DNA from: an uncultured Oscillospiraceae bacterium
Lineage (GTDB): Bacteria; Bacillota; Clostridia; Oscillospirales; Oscillospiraceae
Direction of reading: 5' to 3'
Assembly: GCA_947626905.1 (NCBI GenBank)
Contig: CANQUE010000005.1
Span: 1 to 64,000 of the forward strand
DNA length: 64,000 bases
Shown: piece after piece, positions 6,282 to 36,824 of the stretch
Layout: the number at the start of each line of letters is the position of its first letter
Position numbering within the stretch: the first letter of the stretch is position 1
Notes under the pieces: model-generated
Seen by the model: the letters and a program-made list of their open reading frames with translations, nothing else
What the model was told of the DNA's origin: nothing
Databases searched by the model: none
Translations under genes and position numbers: made by a program

Positions 6282-7763
6282 TTACAGCACCACGCCGTCT
6301 TTGAAGATGGAGATCTCCCGGGCGCCGCGCAGCTCGGCCTTTGTGCGCTCGCCGCCGGCCACCGCCAGCACGTACTCCAAAAGCCGCCTGCCCGTGTCGT
6401 CCAGATCCTCCCCCTGGGCGGCCGTACCGGCGTTGAAGTCGATCCACCCGCCCTTTTTCTCGTACAGGGCCGTGTTGGTGGATATCTTCACCGTGGGAGC
6501 CGGCGCGCCGAAGGGCGTGCCCCGGCCGGTGGTGAACAGGATGATGTGGGCGCCCGCGGCGGTGAGGGCCGTGGCGCTGACCAGGTCGTTTCCCGGGCCG
6601 CTGAGAAGATTCAGTCCCTTCTTCGTGACCGCCTCTCCGTAGCCCAGCACGTCCACCACCTGGGCGCTGCCTCCCTTCTGGACGCAGCCGCAGGATTTGT
6701 CCTCCAGGGTGGTGATGCCGCCGGCCTTGTTGCCGGGGCTGGGATTTTCATAGACCACCTGGCCGTGGCTGACGAAATAGCGCTTGAAGTCCTCCACCAT
6801 GGCCACCGCCTTGCGGAATACCTCCTCGTTCTGGCAGCGGTTGAACAGGATGCTCTCCGCGCCGAACATCTCCGGCACCTCGGTGAGCACCGTGGAGCCG
6901 CCGGCGGCGATCAGCAGGTCGGAAAACCGGCCCACGGCCGGGTTGGCGGTGATACCGCTCAGGCCGTCGGACCCGCCGCACTTCATGCCCACCACCAGCT
7001 CCGAAGCGGGGATATCCTCCCGCTGGAACCGGCCGGCATACGCCGCCAGCTCCGCCAGCAGGGCGCTGCCCGCGGCCAGTTCGTCCTCCGCCTCCTGGCA
7101 GATGAGGAATTTTACCCTCTCGTCGTCCCAGGAGCCCAGCTCCGCTTTGAACTGGTCCATGGTCAGGTTCTCGCACCCCAGACCCAGCACCAGCACGCCC
7201 CCCGCGTTGGGATGGCGGGTGAGGGCGGCCAGCAGCTTGCGGGTCTGGGCGTGGTCGTCCCCCATCTGGCTGCATCCGAAGGGATGGGGGAAGGTGTACA
7301 GTCCCTCCACCGACCCGGTCACCAGATGCTGGTTTTGCTGCACCAGGCGCTGGGCCACGGAGTTGACGCAGCCCACCGTGGGGATGATCCAAAGCTCGTT
7401 GCGCACCGCGGCCCGTCCGTCGGGCCGGCGGTAGCCTTTGAAGGTATACGCCGAAGCGGGCGGCATGGGCAGGGTCACGTGGTCGTACACATACTCCCCG
7501 CCCTCGGAAAGGCCCGTGCGCACATTGTGGGTATGGACCCACTGGCCCGGGGCGATGTCCTGCTTGGCCAGGCCGATGACGCAGCCGTATTTCACGATCT
7601 GCCCCTCCGCCGGGATGGCCGTCAGAGCCAGTTTATGGCCCCGCTTCACGTCCTCGGCGGCGGTGACGGCAACGCCCTCGGAAACCGCCAGGGTCTCCCC
7701 CGCGGCAATATCCTCCAGAGCCACCGCCACGTTGTCCGCAGGATGGATGCGGATCAGCCTCAT
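6282..7763 (-). CDS. uxaA: Altronate dehydratase
   Basis: A 493-aa UxaA-family protein, full length. It converts D-altronate to 2-keto-3-deoxygluconate (KDG), the third step of galacturonate breakdown in the cytoplasm. An N-terminal SAF-like domain (about residues 1-90, ending near PGQWVHTHN) precedes the large catalytic domain. That domain carries GYRRPDGRAAVRNELWIIPTVG-type, GLGCEN, MKCGGSDG and GNDLVSATAL segments characteristic of UxaA/GarD dehydratases. Its ATG overlaps the uxaB stop as ATGA, so it is translationally coupled. It is the last gene of the catabolic operon. Confidence 0.95.
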   Translation of the reverse strand: MRLIRIHPADNVAVALEDIAAGETLAVSEGVAVTAAEDVKRGHKLALTAIPAEGQIVKYGCVIGLAKQDIAPGQWVHTHNVRTGLSEGGEYVYDHVTLPMPPASAYTFKGYRRPDGRAAVRNELWIIPTVGCVNSVAQRLVQQNQHLVTGSVEGLYTFPHPFGCSQMGDDHAQTRKLLAALTRHPNAGGVLVLGLGCENLTMDQFKAELGSWDDERVKFLICQEAEDELAAGSALLAELAAYAGRFQREDIPASELVVGMKCGGSDGLSGITANPAVGRFSDLLIAAGGSTVLTEVPEMFGAESILFNRCQNEEVFRKAVAMVEDFKRYFVSHGQVVYENPSPGNKAGGITTLEDKSCGCVQKGGSAQVVDVLGYGEAVTKKGLNLLSGPGNDLVSATALTAAGAHIILFTTGRGTPFGAPAPTVKISTNTALYEKKGGWIDFNAGTAAQGEDLDDTGRRLLEYVLAVAGGERTKAELRGAREISIFKDGVVL

Positions 7764-31743: not shown

Positions 31744-32205
31744 ATGACAAAGATCCTTTTCGTCTGTCACGGCAACATCTGCCGCAGCCCCATGGCGGAG
31801 TTCGTCATGAAGGCGCTGGTCAAAAAAGAGGGGCTGGAGCGGGAGTTTTTCATCGCCTCCGCCGCCACCAGCACCGAGGAGATCGGGAACCCCGTCTATC
31901 CCCCCGCCCGGCGGATGCTGCAAAAGCATGGCATCGACTGCGCCGGAAAGACCGCCCGGCAGATGACGGCCCGGGATTACGGGCAGTACGACCTGCTGGT
32001 GGGCATGGACGGGGCCAATCTGCGGAACATGCGCCGGATCTGCGGCGGGGACCGGGACGACAAGCTGCGGCTGCTGCGGGAATATACCGACCGCCCCGGG
32101 GATGTGGCAGACCCCTGGTATACCGGGGATTTCGAGGCCACATGGCGGGACGTGGACGAGGGCTGCCGGGGCCTGCTGGCGGCCATACGCCAGGGCCAGG
32201 CCTGA
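31744..32205 (+). CDS. Low-molecular-weight protein tyrosine phosphatase
   Basis: A 153-aa phosphatase with the P-loop CHGNICRS (Cys8 nucleophile, Arg14) at the N terminus and the general-acid loop DPWYTGDF near residue 122. The length is that of the family. It hydrolyses phosphotyrosine; in Firmicutes such enzymes often oppose BY-kinases in capsule or stress control, but no kinase is nearby. AAGGAG precedes the ATG. It is separated from the lic operon by that operon's own consensus promoter. Confidence 0.95.
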   Translation: MTKILFVCHGNICRSPMAEFVMKALVKKEGLEREFFIASAATSTEEIGNPVYPPARRMLQKHGIDCAGKTARQMTARDYGQYDLLVGMDGANLRNMRRICGGDRDDKLRLLREYTDRPGDVADPWYTGDFEATWRDVDEGCRGLLAAIRQGQA

Positions 32206-32222: not shown

Positions 32223-32251
32223 TTGACATTCCCCTGCACAGGGTATATAAT
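32223..32251 (+). promoter_or_regulatory. Consensus sigma-A promoter of the lic operon
   Basis: TTGACA (32223-32228), 17-bp spacer, TATAAT (32246-32251), both hexamers perfect; the first ATG is 37 bases downstream. Confidence 0.92.
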
Positions 32252-32287
32252 GCCCCTATGTTCACAAAATAAGGATTTTGCTTGTAC

Positions 32288-34054
32288 ATGAACATTCAAG
32301 AGCTCGACATTTTGAACATCCTGGCCCAGGAGCCCTTCACCACCCAGCGGCTGCTGGCGGAGCGGTGCGGCCACAGCCTGGGGATCGTGAACCGCTGCCT
32401 GCGGACGCTGACCCAGAGCGGCTGTCTGGACCGGGACGCCCAGCTGACGGAGAAGGCGTGGGAGCTGCTGCGCCGGAGCGCGCCGAAAAACGCCGTCATC
32501 CTGGCGGCGGGCAGCGGCATGCGCATGGTCCCCATCAACATGGAGGTCTCCAAGGGACTTCTGGAGGTGGACGGCCAGCCGCTGATCGAGCGGACCATCG
32601 AGCAGCTCCACCAGGCCGGCGTCCGGGACGTGACCGTGGTGGTGGGCTTCATGAAAGAGCAGTACGAATATCTCATGGACAAATACGGCGTACAGCTTCT
32701 TGTGAACCCCCAGTACGCCTCCAAGAACAACCTCCACTCCCTTCTGCTAGCCCTGGACCGGCTGAGCAACACCTACGTGATCCCCTGCGACATCTGGTGC
32801 GCCCGCAATCCCTACCGGCGGTATGAGCTGTATTCCTGGTACATGGTCAGCGACCTGGTGGACAACGCCAGCACCGTGCGGATGAACCGGAAGATGGAGC
32901 TGGCCACCGTGCCCCTCGGGACCGGGGGCAACGCCATGATCGGCATCAGCTATCTCATGGAGCCGGAGGCGGCCATCGTCCGCCAGCGGATCGCCGCCAT
33001 GAGCCGGGACCCCCGCCACCGGGGCTCTTTCTGGGAGGAGGCCCTGTACGAGAAGGACCGGATGCTGGTGAACGCCCGGTCCGTCCCCGCCTCAGAGGTG
33101 GCGGAGATCAACACCTATGAGCAGCTCAAGCAGCTGGACGAACGCTCCGACCAGCTCCAGGGCAGCGCCATCGTCACCGCCGCCCGGGTGCTGAACGCCC
33201 GGCCGGAGGAGATCGAAACGGTGGAGGAACTGAAAAAAGGCATGACCAACCGGTCGTTCCTGTTCACCTGCCATGACCGGCGGTATGTCATGCGCGTGCC
33301 CGGGGCGGGCTCCAACGAGCTGATCCGCCGGCGGGAGGAGGCCGCGGTATACGAGGCCATCCGGGGGAGGGGCCTTTGCGACGACCCCGTCTATATCGAC
33401 CCGGATACAGGCTATAAGATCGCCCGGTACCTGCCCCGGGCGCGGGTGTGCGACAGCGGCGATCCCCGGGACGTGGCCCGGTGCATGGCCCGGCTGCGGC
33501 AATTCCACCAGATGGGCCTGACGGTGGACCACGACTTCGACATCTTCGGCCAGATCGATTTTTACGAGTCCCTCTGGCAGGGCGCCCCCTCCGCCTACCG
33601 GGATCACCCCCAGACGAAGGCCGGTGTGCTGGCCCTGCGGGGATACATCGACCGCCACGCGGGGAAAAAATGCCTGACCCACATCGACGCGGTGCCGGAC
33701 AACTTCCTGTTCGTCCCTCAACCCGGGGGAGAAGAGCAGCTACAGCTGATCGACTGGGAATACGCCGGCATGCAGGACCCCCACGTGGACATCGCCATGT
33801 TTTGCATCTACTCTCTGTACGGGCGGGCCCAGTGCGACAGGGCCATCGACGCCTATTTCCCCGAGGGCTGTCCGGAGGCCACCCGCACGAAGATATACTG
33901 CTACATCGCCGCCGGGGGCCTTTTGTGGAGCAACTGGTGCGAATACAAGCGCAACCTGGGCGTGGAATTCGGAGAGTACTCCCTGCGCCAGTACCGCTAT
34001 GCCAAGGACTTCGCCCGCCTGGCGCAAAAAAGGATCGAAGAGGACGTGTCATGA
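32288..34054 (+). CDS. Three-domain fusion: winged helix, LicC-like nucleotidyltransferase, LicA-like choline kinase
   Basis: A 588-aa protein with three parts. Residues about 1-62 form a winged helix-turn-helix (QRLLAERCGHSLGIVNRCLRTL). Residues about 65-290 are a sugar/choline-phosphate nucleotidyltransferase (AAGSGMRM...VSKGLLEV; acidic site PCDIW). Residues about 305-585 are an APH/choline-kinase domain with CLTHIDAVPDN and IDWEYAGMQDPHVD, catalytic and metal residues intact. It may make and activate phosphocholine or a related head group, with the winged helix giving DNA binding or dimerisation. ATG 32288 is preferred over TTG 32282. It is coupled to licC by ATGA. Separate licC and licA genes follow, so the fusion may use another substrate. 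Confidence 0.85.
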   Translation: MNIQELDILNILAQEPFTTQRLLAERCGHSLGIVNRCLRTLTQSGCLDRDAQLTEKAWELLRRSAPKNAVILAAGSGMRMVPINMEVSKGLLEVDGQPLIERTIEQLHQAGVRDVTVVVGFMKEQYEYLMDKYGVQLLVNPQYASKNNLHSLLLALDRLSNTYVIPCDIWCARNPYRRYELYSWYMVSDLVDNASTVRMNRKMELATVPLGTGGNAMIGISYLMEPEAAIVRQRIAAMSRDPRHRGSFWEEALYEKDRMLVNARSVPASEVAEINTYEQLKQLDERSDQLQGSAIVTAARVLNARPEEIETVEELKKGMTNRSFLFTCHDRRYVMRVPGAGSNELIRRREEAAVYEAIRGRGLCDDPVYIDPDTGYKIARYLPRARVCDSGDPRDVARCMARLRQFHQMGLTVDHDFDIFGQIDFYESLWQGAPSAYRDHPQTKAGVLALRGYIDRHAGKKCLTHIDAVPDNFLFVPQPGGEEQLQLIDWEYAGMQDPHVDIAMFCIYSLYGRAQCDRAIDAYFPEGCPEATRTKIYCYIAAGGLLWSNWCEYKRNLGVEFGEYSLRQYRYAKDFARLAQKRIEEDVS

Positions 34055-34923
34055 GCTACAAAGTGGACAACGCGGTCATCATGGCCGCCGGGGCCGCCAG
34101 CCGGTTCGCCCCTCTCAGCTATGAGCTGCCCAAGGCCCTCATCCCGGTGCGGGGCGAGGTGCTCATCGAGCGGCAGATCCGCCAGCTGTACAAGGCGGGG
34201 GTGCCGGAGGTGATCGTGGTCACCGGCTATAAGAGCGAGCAGTTCGCCTATCTGGCGGAAAAGTGCGGCGTGCGTCTGGTGCACAACCCGGACTGGGACC
34301 GCCGCAACAACACCGGCAGCATCCACGCCGTCCGGGACCTGCTGGGCAGCAGCTACCTGTGCTCGGCGGACAATTATTTCACCGCGAACCCCTTCGAGCC
34401 GGAGGTCACCGACAGCTATTATGCCGCCGAGTACGCCGACGGCCCCACGGCGGAATGGTGCATGCGGACCGACGCCGACGGCCACATCTGCCATGTGCAG
34501 ATCGGCGGGGAAAACGCCTGGTATATGATGGGCCACACCTTCTGGAGCCGGGATTTCACCCGGCAGTTCCTGGCCCTGCTGGAGAGGGAATATGACGATC
34601 CTCGCACCGCCAGCCAGCTGTGGGAGCGGTTTTTCATGCGGCACCTGGACCGGCTGAAGATGTCCGTCCGGCGGTATCCCCCGGAGCAGATCTTCGAGTT
34701 CGACTCCCTGGATGAGCTGCGGGCCTTCGACCCCTCCTATATCGACGACGCCCGCTCCCCCATCCTGGCGGACGCAGCGGCCCGGCTGGGCTGCGGCCAG
34801 CGGGACATCACCGGCATACGCGCCTTCCTGGGCGGCAGCGCCGAGGCGGAGGGCTTCACCTTCGACGCCCCCGGCGGGCAGTACCGATACACCTATAAAG
34901 ATCGAAAGATTGAGAGGATATGA
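34051..34923 (+). CDS. licC: Choline-phosphate cytidylyltransferase-like nucleotidyltransferase
   Basis: A 290-aa nucleotidyltransferase of the LicC type. The N-terminal signature is MAAGAASRFAPLSYELPKALIPVRGEVLIE (in segments), with GYKSEQ following and the metal site SADNYF near residue 110. It is expected to make CDP-choline from phosphocholine and CTP. LicC proteins are usually near 230 residues; this one has about 60 extra residues at the C terminus. It starts within the stop of the fusion gene and is followed by licA after 1 base. Confidence 0.88.
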   Translation: MSYKVDNAVIMAAGAASRFAPLSYELPKALIPVRGEVLIERQIRQLYKAGVPEVIVVTGYKSEQFAYLAEKCGVRLVHNPDWDRRNNTGSIHAVRDLLGSSYLCSADNYFTANPFEPEVTDSYYAAEYADGPTAEWCMRTDADGHICHVQIGGENAWYMMGHTFWSRDFTRQFLALLEREYDDPRTASQLWERFFMRHLDRLKMSVRRYPPEQIFEFDSLDELRAFDPSYIDDARSPILADAAARLGCGQRDITGIRAFLGGSAEAEGFTFDAPGGQYRYTYKDRKIERI

Positions 34924-34924
34924 C

Positions 34925-35833
34925 ATGAGCGAAAACGTATTGCATGAGGACCTGGAGAAGATCGGCGGTCTGCTCCGCTCCCAGCTGGGGCTGGATGCGA
35001 TCCGCGACGCCCAGCGCCTGGGAGGGCTCACCAACCGGACCTACCGGGTGACGGCCAGCGACGGGGCCGAGTACGTCTGCCGCGTCCCTGGCGAGGGCAC
35101 GGAGCAGATGATCGTCCGCTCCGACGAGCGGGTGAGCACACAGCTCGCCTGCCGGGTGGGCATCGACGCGGAGCTTTTATACTTCGGCGACGACGGCACC
35201 AAGATCACCCGGTACATCCCCGACGCGGTGACCATGTCCCCCCAGACCATGGGCCAGCCGGAGCACATCCGCCAGGCGGCGGAGATCCTGCGCGCCCTGC
35301 ACACCTGCGGCGAGGATACCGGCGTACCCTTCGAGGTGTTCCAGATGGCCGACACCTATGAGCGGGTCATCCGGGACAACCACGTGCCCCTGTACGACGA
35401 TTACGAGCAGGTAAAGGGCCAGGTCATGGCCATCAAGCAGGCGCTGGAGGCGGGCCATGCCCGGCCCCTGGTCCCCTGCCACAACGACCCGCTGTGCGAA
35501 AACTGGGTGACTTCCGGCGACCGGATGTATCTGGTGGACTGGGAATATGCCGGGATGAACGACGGCATGTGGGACCTGGCGGACGTGTCCATCGAGGCGG
35601 CCTATGACCAGGAGCAGGACGGGATGCTGCTGGACGCCTATTTCGGCCGGCCGGTGACGGATCACGAAAAACGCACCTTCCTGGCCAACAAGCTGTATCT
35701 GGACTACCTGTGGACCCTGTGGGGACTGACGAGAGTCCCCTACGACGGCGAGAGCATGGAGCAGTACGCTCTGGAGAGATATCAGCGTCTGAAGGAAAAC
35801 CTCAGACACTACGCGGAAAAGGAGGACAAATAA
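34925..35833 (+). CDS. licA: Choline kinase (LicA-like)
   Basis: A 302-aa aminoglycoside-phosphotransferase-fold kinase. GGLTNRTYRV near residues 28-37 binds ATP. The catalytic loop is CHNDPLCEN, and the Mg loop is VDWEYAGMNDGMWDLADV, the choline/ethanolamine kinase form. It should phosphorylate imported choline. It lies in one run with licC and licB; the next ATG is directly adjacent to its stop. Confidence 0.9.
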   Translation: MSENVLHEDLEKIGGLLRSQLGLDAIRDAQRLGGLTNRTYRVTASDGAEYVCRVPGEGTEQMIVRSDERVSTQLACRVGIDAELLYFGDDGTKITRYIPDAVTMSPQTMGQPEHIRQAAEILRALHTCGEDTGVPFEVFQMADTYERVIRDNHVPLYDDYEQVKGQVMAIKQALEAGHARPLVPCHNDPLCENWVTSGDRMYLVDWEYAGMNDGMWDLADVSIEAAYDQEQDGMLLDAYFGRPVTDHEKRTFLANKLYLDYLWTLWGLTRVPYDGESMEQYALERYQRLKENLRHYAEKEDK

Positions 35834-36772
35834 ATGTTCAGCGGACTGACAGCCGGCATCCTGTGGGGCCTGGACACCGTGATCCTGGGGGTGGCCCTGG
35901 CCATGAGCGAATTCGTTTCCACGGAACAGGCGGTATTCCTGGCGCCCTTCGTCAGCACCTTCCTGCACGACGCCTGCTCCTCCATCTGGATGCTGATCTA
36001 CATGGGCATCAAAAAGCAGTACAAAAATGTGATCCGGGCCCTGAAGACCCGCAGCGGCAAGTTCATCATCCTGGCGGCCCTGCTGGGCGGTCCCATCGGC
36101 ATGAGCGGCTATGTGGCGGCCATCAACTTCATCGGCCCGGCCTATACCGCCATCATCTCCTCCCTGTTCCCCGCTCTGGGCGCCTTTTTGTCCTACATTT
36201 TCCTGAAAGAAAAGATGACGCCCCTGCAGCTGTGCGGGCTGCTGGTGAGCATCGTCGGCGTCATCGTGCTGGGCTATACCCCCGGCGGCATCCCCGAGGG
36301 GAGCAACCTGCTGCTGGGCTTCGGCTGTGCTATCCTCTGCTGCGTCGGCTGGGCCGCCGAGGCGGTCATCTGCGCCTACGGCCTGAAAGACCCGGACATC
36401 ACCGACGAGCATGCCCTGCAGATCCGCCAGCTCACCTCCGCCATCTTCTACGGCGTGGTGATCCTCACTGTGATCCGGGGCTGGCGCTTCACCGTAGGCA
36501 TGATCCCCACCACCTGCACAGCGGTGATCGCCCTGTCCGCCCTGTTCGGCACCGCGTCCTACGTGTTCTATTACAAGGCCATCGTGAAGATCGGCGCGGC
36601 CAAGGCCATGGCCCTGAACATCACCTATTCCGCCTGGTCCATCGTCTTCGCCCTGATCCTGCTGCACACCCTGCCGGATGTGAAGAGCATCATCTGCGGC
36701 GTGGTGATCGTGCTGGGGTCCATCGTGGCCGCGGCGGATATAAAAGAACTGCTGGGCCGGAAAAAAGCATAA
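35834..36772 (+). CDS. licB: Choline permease, DMT superfamily (LicB-like)
   Basis: A 312-aa membrane protein with ten predicted helices in two EamA-type halves. The first half ends with AAINFIGPAYTAIISSLFPALGAFLSYIFLKE, the classical DMT motif around helix 4; the second contains FYYKAIVKIGAAKAMALNITYS. LicB proteins import choline for phosphocholine decoration of surface polymers. AAGGAGG ends the licA gene just before the start. It is the last gene of the operon. Confidence 0.9.
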   Translation: MFSGLTAGILWGLDTVILGVALAMSEFVSTEQAVFLAPFVSTFLHDACSSIWMLIYMGIKKQYKNVIRALKTRSGKFIILAALLGGPIGMSGYVAAINFIGPAYTAIISSLFPALGAFLSYIFLKEKMTPLQLCGLLVSIVGVIVLGYTPGGIPEGSNLLLGFGCAILCCVGWAAEAVICAYGLKDPDITDEHALQIRQLTSAIFYGVVILTVIRGWRFTVGMIPTTCTAVIALSALFGTASYVFYYKAIVKIGAAKAMALNITYSAWSIVFALILLHTLPDVKSIICGVVIVLGSIVAAADIKELLGRKKA

Positions 36773-36777
36773 AGATC

Positions 36778-36824
36778 TCCGGCAAAACGCCCCGGCGGCC
36801 TGACCGCCGGGGCGTTTTGCCGGA
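36778..36824 (+). terminator. Terminator after the lic operon
   Basis: A 21-bp perfect stem (36778-36798 with 36804-36824) and 5-nt loop. The inner GC core is followed by GTTTTG, which serves as the U tract. Confidence 0.85.

Follow-up and report, generated by a model that had tools for sequence, protein, structure and literature searches.

The operon analysed here probably produces CDP-choline for the display of phosphocholine at the cell surface, and its first gene encodes a fusion protein that, as far as sequence comparison can tell, would serve both as a choline kinase and as the repressor of its own operon. The operon lies in the window, by which we mean the whole stretch of 64,000 nucleotides from an uncultured Oscillospiraceae bacterium that was analysed. 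The fusion, which joins a winged helix, a LicC-like nucleotidyltransferase (NT) and a LicA-like kinase, belongs to a widespread and generically annotated family: one scan recovered 402 candidate loci, so that related genomes with the fusion number in the hundreds, public annotation calls it just 'phosphotransferase' or 'NTP transferase domain-containing protein', and literature searches found no description of a winged helix-NT-kinase fusion.

The model that we propose, and consider likely, is as follows. Choline would be imported by LicB and activated by the kinase(s) and LicC, and a LicD encoded at another locus, next to a flippase on contig C6, would transfer phosphocholine from the resulting CDP-choline to surface polysaccharide. 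A dimer of the fusion would place one winged helix on each half-site of the inverted repeat TGTTCA-N24/25-TGAACA at the transcription start and so repress the operon, while the NT domain would pass information on the CTP/CDP-choline state to the winged helix. The sensed ligand is probably CTP or CDP-choline, and CDP-choline would most likely be the co-repressor.

Operon layout and domains of the fusion protein

Four co-directional genes that overlap or abut each other make up the operon, from 32288 to 36772 (see the table). The sequence-only reading had described a lic1-like operon with licC, licA and licB that begins with a winged helix-nucleotidyltransferase-kinase fusion, and all of these genes were found where it had placed them. 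The operon brings together a choline kinase, a CTP:phosphocholine cytidylyltransferase and a transporter for choline, as in lic-type pathways. The hairpin behind licB is the likely end of the operon, though termination there on the plus strand is uncertain because the T-run is on the minus strand only.

Features of the operon and its flanks, in window coordinates
Feature	Position	Strand	Details
Sigma-70 promoter TTGACA-17-TATAAT	32223..32251	+	consensus match 12/12
Candidate operator TGTTCA-N24-TGAACA	32259..32294	+	half-sites 32259-32264 and 32289-32294; conserved family-wide
Alternative TTG start of fusion	32282
Fusion gene	32288..34054	+	588 aa; winged helix, LicC-like nucleotidyltransferase, LicA-like choline kinase
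licC, CTP:phosphocholine cytidylyltransferase	34051..34923	+	290 aa; 1jyk, E=2e-34
licA, stand-alone choline kinase	34925..35833	+	closest solved relative Mesorhizobium 3dxq
licB, EamA/DMT choline transporter	35834..36772	+	relative of S. pneumoniae LicB, 7b0k, E=3e-33
20-bp hairpin 3' of licB	36779..36823	.	likely operon end; T-run on minus strand only

Two further observations concern the surroundings of the fusion gene. A low-molecular-weight protein tyrosine phosphatase gene (31744-32205) ends around 80 bp before the fusion start, and locus L010 has a 153-codon frame at the corresponding place. Also, the C-terminus of licC (34740-34923) carries around 60 extra amino acids that resemble a kinase N-lobe remnant and, in paralogues, align with the N-lobe of the kinase part of the fusion; by this tail, licC looks as if it came from a split LicC-LicA fusion.

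Within the fusion, Pfam places HTH_24 at residues 1-45, NTP_transf_3 at 69-169 and an APH/choline kinase domain at 311-528, the catalytic families being PF12804 and PF01636/PF01633. The AlphaFold model (68 homologues, mean pLDDT 89.8) agrees with this assignment, and the domain limits are 1-60 for the winged helix, 65-288 for the nucleotidyltransferase and 290-585 for the kinase. The best solved relatives of the protein are S. pneumoniae LicA (4r77) and LicC (1jyk): model residues 63-288 match pneumococcal LicC with Z 27.2 and rmsd 2.5 over 222 aligned residues, which predicts a LicC fold for the NT domain, and residues 288-580 match pneumococcal LicA with Z 29.1. The matches listed in the fold search are those of the catalytic domains, and the winged helix was barely probed by it; its recognition-helix segment HSLGxVN is nearly invariant in the family. 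The kinase motifs HxD....N and DWEY are intact in 81/81 sequences, from which we infer an active kinase, and the idea of an inactive fusion is rejected for the kinase part on the ground of this invariance. Of the earlier proposal that the fusion duplicates the licC and licA chemistry, the licC part is doubtful for the reasons given below.

The nucleotidyltransferase domain: sensor or enzyme

Motif counts were made on a comparison set formed by the best 80 of the 402 loci (81 sequences). These best 80 are around 55-75% identical and come from Oscillospiraceae, Lachnospiraceae, Lactobacillaceae, Streptococcus, Coriobacteria and others. Their fusions, which we call type A, keep the nucleotide-binding part of LicC. 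Thus, in the signature AAGxGxR the second G is present in 80/81 and the R in 81/81, 81/81 also have the Lys and the first metal Asp, and LicC D107 is retained along with GxGxR and K. On the other hand, the T-x-E-W motif (LicC 133-136), W165 and the second metal Asp, D218, which each LicC group in the comparison keeps in most or all of its members, have been lost or changed in the type-A NT. The motif and this Asp are both present in S. pneumoniae LicC and in the two LicC subtypes, whereas the D218 position is Asn in 77/81 type-A proteins. In LicC itself, D105 and D192 lie near choline and an aromatic box has been described (PMC6697681).

A second kind of fusion gives the opposite picture. In type-B paralogues (winged helix-LicC-LicA; loci L100, L113, L114, L117, L135, L164, L165 and L167) the LicC residues are kept, T-x-E-W/Y and the Asp mostly so, and most of these loci have the operator core. 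In a tree of NT domains, true LicC, with the type-B fusions included, is separated from type A with a support of 0.999. The neighbourhood differs as well, since a separate LicC, belonging to one of two subtypes, adjoins the fusion in 68/80 type-A loci (best 80 of 402), compared with 3/9 type-B loci that have one nearby (p = 0.002). When no LicC is adjacent to a type-A fusion, it is found elsewhere in the genome in 9/12 cases; a genome-wide search found no other LicC in three fusion genomes, whose completeness is not stated. As a side observation, loci L119 and L130 encode a winged helix fused to LicC with the full kinase domain absent. Because the LicC residues have been lost and a separate LicC is usual beside type A and rarer beside type B, the type-A NT would appear to be a sensor rather than a LicC.

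Could the NT nevertheless be active, so that the fusion is a genuine LicC-LicA synthase with both functions, whose duplication raises the dosage or serves a second amino alcohol and whose winged helix still binds the operator? The (nearly) invariant GxGxR, Lys and first metal Asp, the match of the NT fold to LicC (Z 27 over 222 residues) and the fully competent appearance of the type-B paralogues would all be in agreement with such an enzyme. The change from Asp to Asn was considered as proof of a dead NT and rejected, because four of the 81 type-A proteins have D irrespective of an adjacent LicC and E. coli GlmU, which has N at the metal-binding Asp position, is functional. Against an active LicC, however, stand the disappearance of the LicC-specific T-x-E-W and W165 from the type-A NT and the nearly constant presence of a separate LicC, and we consider the bifunctional synthase unlikely, though it is the strongest of the alternatives. 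The sensor reading can be extended to the whole family, in which the NT domain would be a CTP/CDP-choline sensor driving DNA binding in widespread enzyme-repressors and the paralogues would keep both synthase activity and operator. We put this extension forward tentatively, with somewhat less than even confidence.

A paired DNA site at the promoter of the fusion

The promoter of the window is found at equal distance in near relatives, and the candidate operator follows directly after its -10 box, with the second half-site overlapping the fusion start codon. This paired element was found by aligning upstream regions, where it sits immediately ahead of the start codon or across it. An initial motif of two TTCRYGAA palindromes was replaced by the inverted repeat TGTTCA-N24/25-TGAACA once the type-B promoters were read. 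The strict form of the site (at most one mismatch) occurs in 59/81 upstream regions, compared with a mean of 0.1 in shuffled sequences, and 78/81 regions have a site when up to three mismatches in 16 are allowed. The boxes lie 24 bp apart in 45 loci and 25 bp apart in 22, and none of the other distances between 15 and 45 was found. Similarly, exact TGTTCA-N-TGAACA sites in 1.72 Mb have a gap of 24 in 34 instances and of 25 in 15, every other gap from 16 to 33 occurring at most three times.

The site is also specific in its location. In 1.38 Mb of loci it is almost exclusively upstream of the fusion, and the genome of the window has a single copy, in that place. The second box is upstream of the start codon in around 16 loci and is therefore no by-product of a Met-Asn start. 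Loci beyond the 80 used for motif discovery also have the site (L134 and L136-L139), and type-B fusions have its core at gap 25 (L100, L135, L167, L169 and L171), with a second copy in L171 that faces a divergent licA-licB. No operator was found upstream of orphan licC genes in the loci searched, nor is one recognisable upstream of the more divergent homologue in L140 (52% identical). A conserved candidate operator thus lies at the fusion's own promoter, as would be expected of an enzyme-repressor. Taken as a whole, these conserved sequences indicate that the fusion very probably controls its own operon, and repression is the most likely direction, since the candidate operator sits at the transcription start. 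The suggestion of a self-regulating synthase that binds DNA is well supported by sequence: the conserved paired site falls in the 32223-32290 region that the sequence-only reading had singled out, with one copy in this genome.

Some loci carry additional elements near the site. A hairpin and T-run ending 12-20 bp before the first half-site occur in 12/81 loci (0.05 expected; L024, L028, L030, L036, L039, L042, L055, L057, L062, L068, L081 and L088), several of which have a promoter just ahead of the hairpin; at such loci the repressor, once bound, might promote termination by acting as a roadblock. L073 has a second complete operator (at 6835), 139 bp further upstream, and in L082 three consecutive boxes follow each other at intervals of 25 bp (569-626).

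The element might instead be an RNA leader hairpin over the start codon, the winged helix serving for protein contacts only. It does lie within the transcribed leader, its two halves can pair, and the leader of the window folds at -8.3 kcal/mol (z -2.25). However, folding is weak elsewhere (-2 to -3.5 kcal/mol in 3/5 other leaders), the element begins 6-12 bp past the -10 box in many loci, in some loci as much as around 80 bp separate it from the start codon, it has no Rfam match and it is tied to genes for winged-helix proteins, all of which make an RNA leader very unlikely.

Head group, known systems and significance

The absence of licD, which the sequence-only reading had remarked on, is confirmed within the window, but the organism does have the gene. 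The genome search that it called for uncovered four PF04991 genes, on contigs C6, C13 (two) and C43, so that a missing LicD is ruled out. The C6 gene is next to a PF01943 polysaccharide flippase and glycosyltransferases, a setting that fits a locus for polysaccharide decoration; the flippase gave no sequence match to any solved structure. This LicD is 64-76% identical to LicD in other genomes of the genus with the same fusion type, and LicD of the C6 type is present in 10/11 fusion genomes of the genus compared with 1/24 others (Fisher p = 6e-7, a value that ignores shared ancestry and comes from genomes of which many are incomplete). The eleventh fusion genome (G019) has two LicD genes around 6 kb from the fusion. 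Across the class, LicD is found in 6/7 fusion genomes and 54/189 others, again ignoring shared ancestry, and a Lacticaseibacillus paracasei plasmid encodes LicD, fusion, LicC and BCCT, in this order, where a polysaccharide cluster ends.

Choline-binding repeats point in the same direction. There are three matches in the genome of the window, and the median in the genus is 15 in type-A genomes versus 1 in the others (p = 2e-4, ignoring shared ancestry). Choline-binding repeat proteins adjoin fusion operons in L167 (5883-8955) and L075 (11148-13112), one of them with a glycosyl hydrolase 25 domain. Because the LicB/BCCT transporters, the LicD genes and these repeats agree, the head group is, on sequence grounds, most likely ordinary phosphocholine, and the proposal of a different activated head group found no support. 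The fusion might still activate another compound, such as phosphoethanolamine or an aminoalkylphosphonate, leaving choline to licCAB, a division of labour that would fit the two kinase/NT pairs in a single operon and the altered residues of the fusion NT. Nevertheless, BCCT or LicB usually follows in type-A operons, most relatives having BCCT with the fusion kinase as the only kinase beside it and LicC, and choline-binding repeats track the fusion; a second head group thus seems very unlikely.

Compared with known systems, the fusion resembles in design two proteins that combine DNA binding with catalysis. BirA, a winged helix-biotin ligase, represses its own pathway operon from an inverted-repeat operator with widely spaced half-sites. 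The fusion would share with it the repression of its own pathway operon by an enzyme and the wide spacing of half-sites in an inverted repeat, but the catalytic domains are unrelated and the operator sequence is different. NadR of Enterobacterales consists of HTH, NMN adenylyltransferase and ribosylnicotinamide kinase (PMC12421817). Here too DNA-binding, nucleotidyltransferase and kinase domains come in that order, joining two chemistries of one pathway to a regulatory domain. However, the pathway is that of choline and not of NAD, the folds are LicC-type NTP_transf_3 and APH-type kinase, the DNA-binding domain is a winged helix, 24-25 bp separate the half-sites and the protein apparently governs mainly its own operon. 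Since its domains are PF12804 and PF01636/PF01633 and not the two NadR enzymes, the fusion is an analogue of NadR and not a member of that family. The pneumococcal system comprises LicB, LicA, LicC, LicD1/LicD2 and the flippase TacF (PMC13385700). The operon has in common with this system choline import, kinase and cytidylyltransferase, as well as a second locus where LicD adjoins a PF01943 flippase; it differs in the additional fusion that heads it and, in most relatives, in the BCCT transporter that replaces LicB. In PntC-AEPT fusions (PMC6697681), too, a LicC-like NT is joined to a further enzyme that acts in a head-group pathway, though the partner is an aminotransferase and the DNA-binding domain is absent.

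Surface phosphocholine allows bacteria to mimic host cells and holds choline-binding proteins in place, and literature searches found no description of how this decoration is regulated in gut Firmicutes. If the fusion is indeed a regulator dedicated to this decoration, its defined operator would allow the phosphocholine regulon to be read in hundreds of genomes, and the fusion would represent an independent case of the NadR-type design. Type A and type B would then offer a natural comparison for understanding how a sensor can arise from an enzyme domain.
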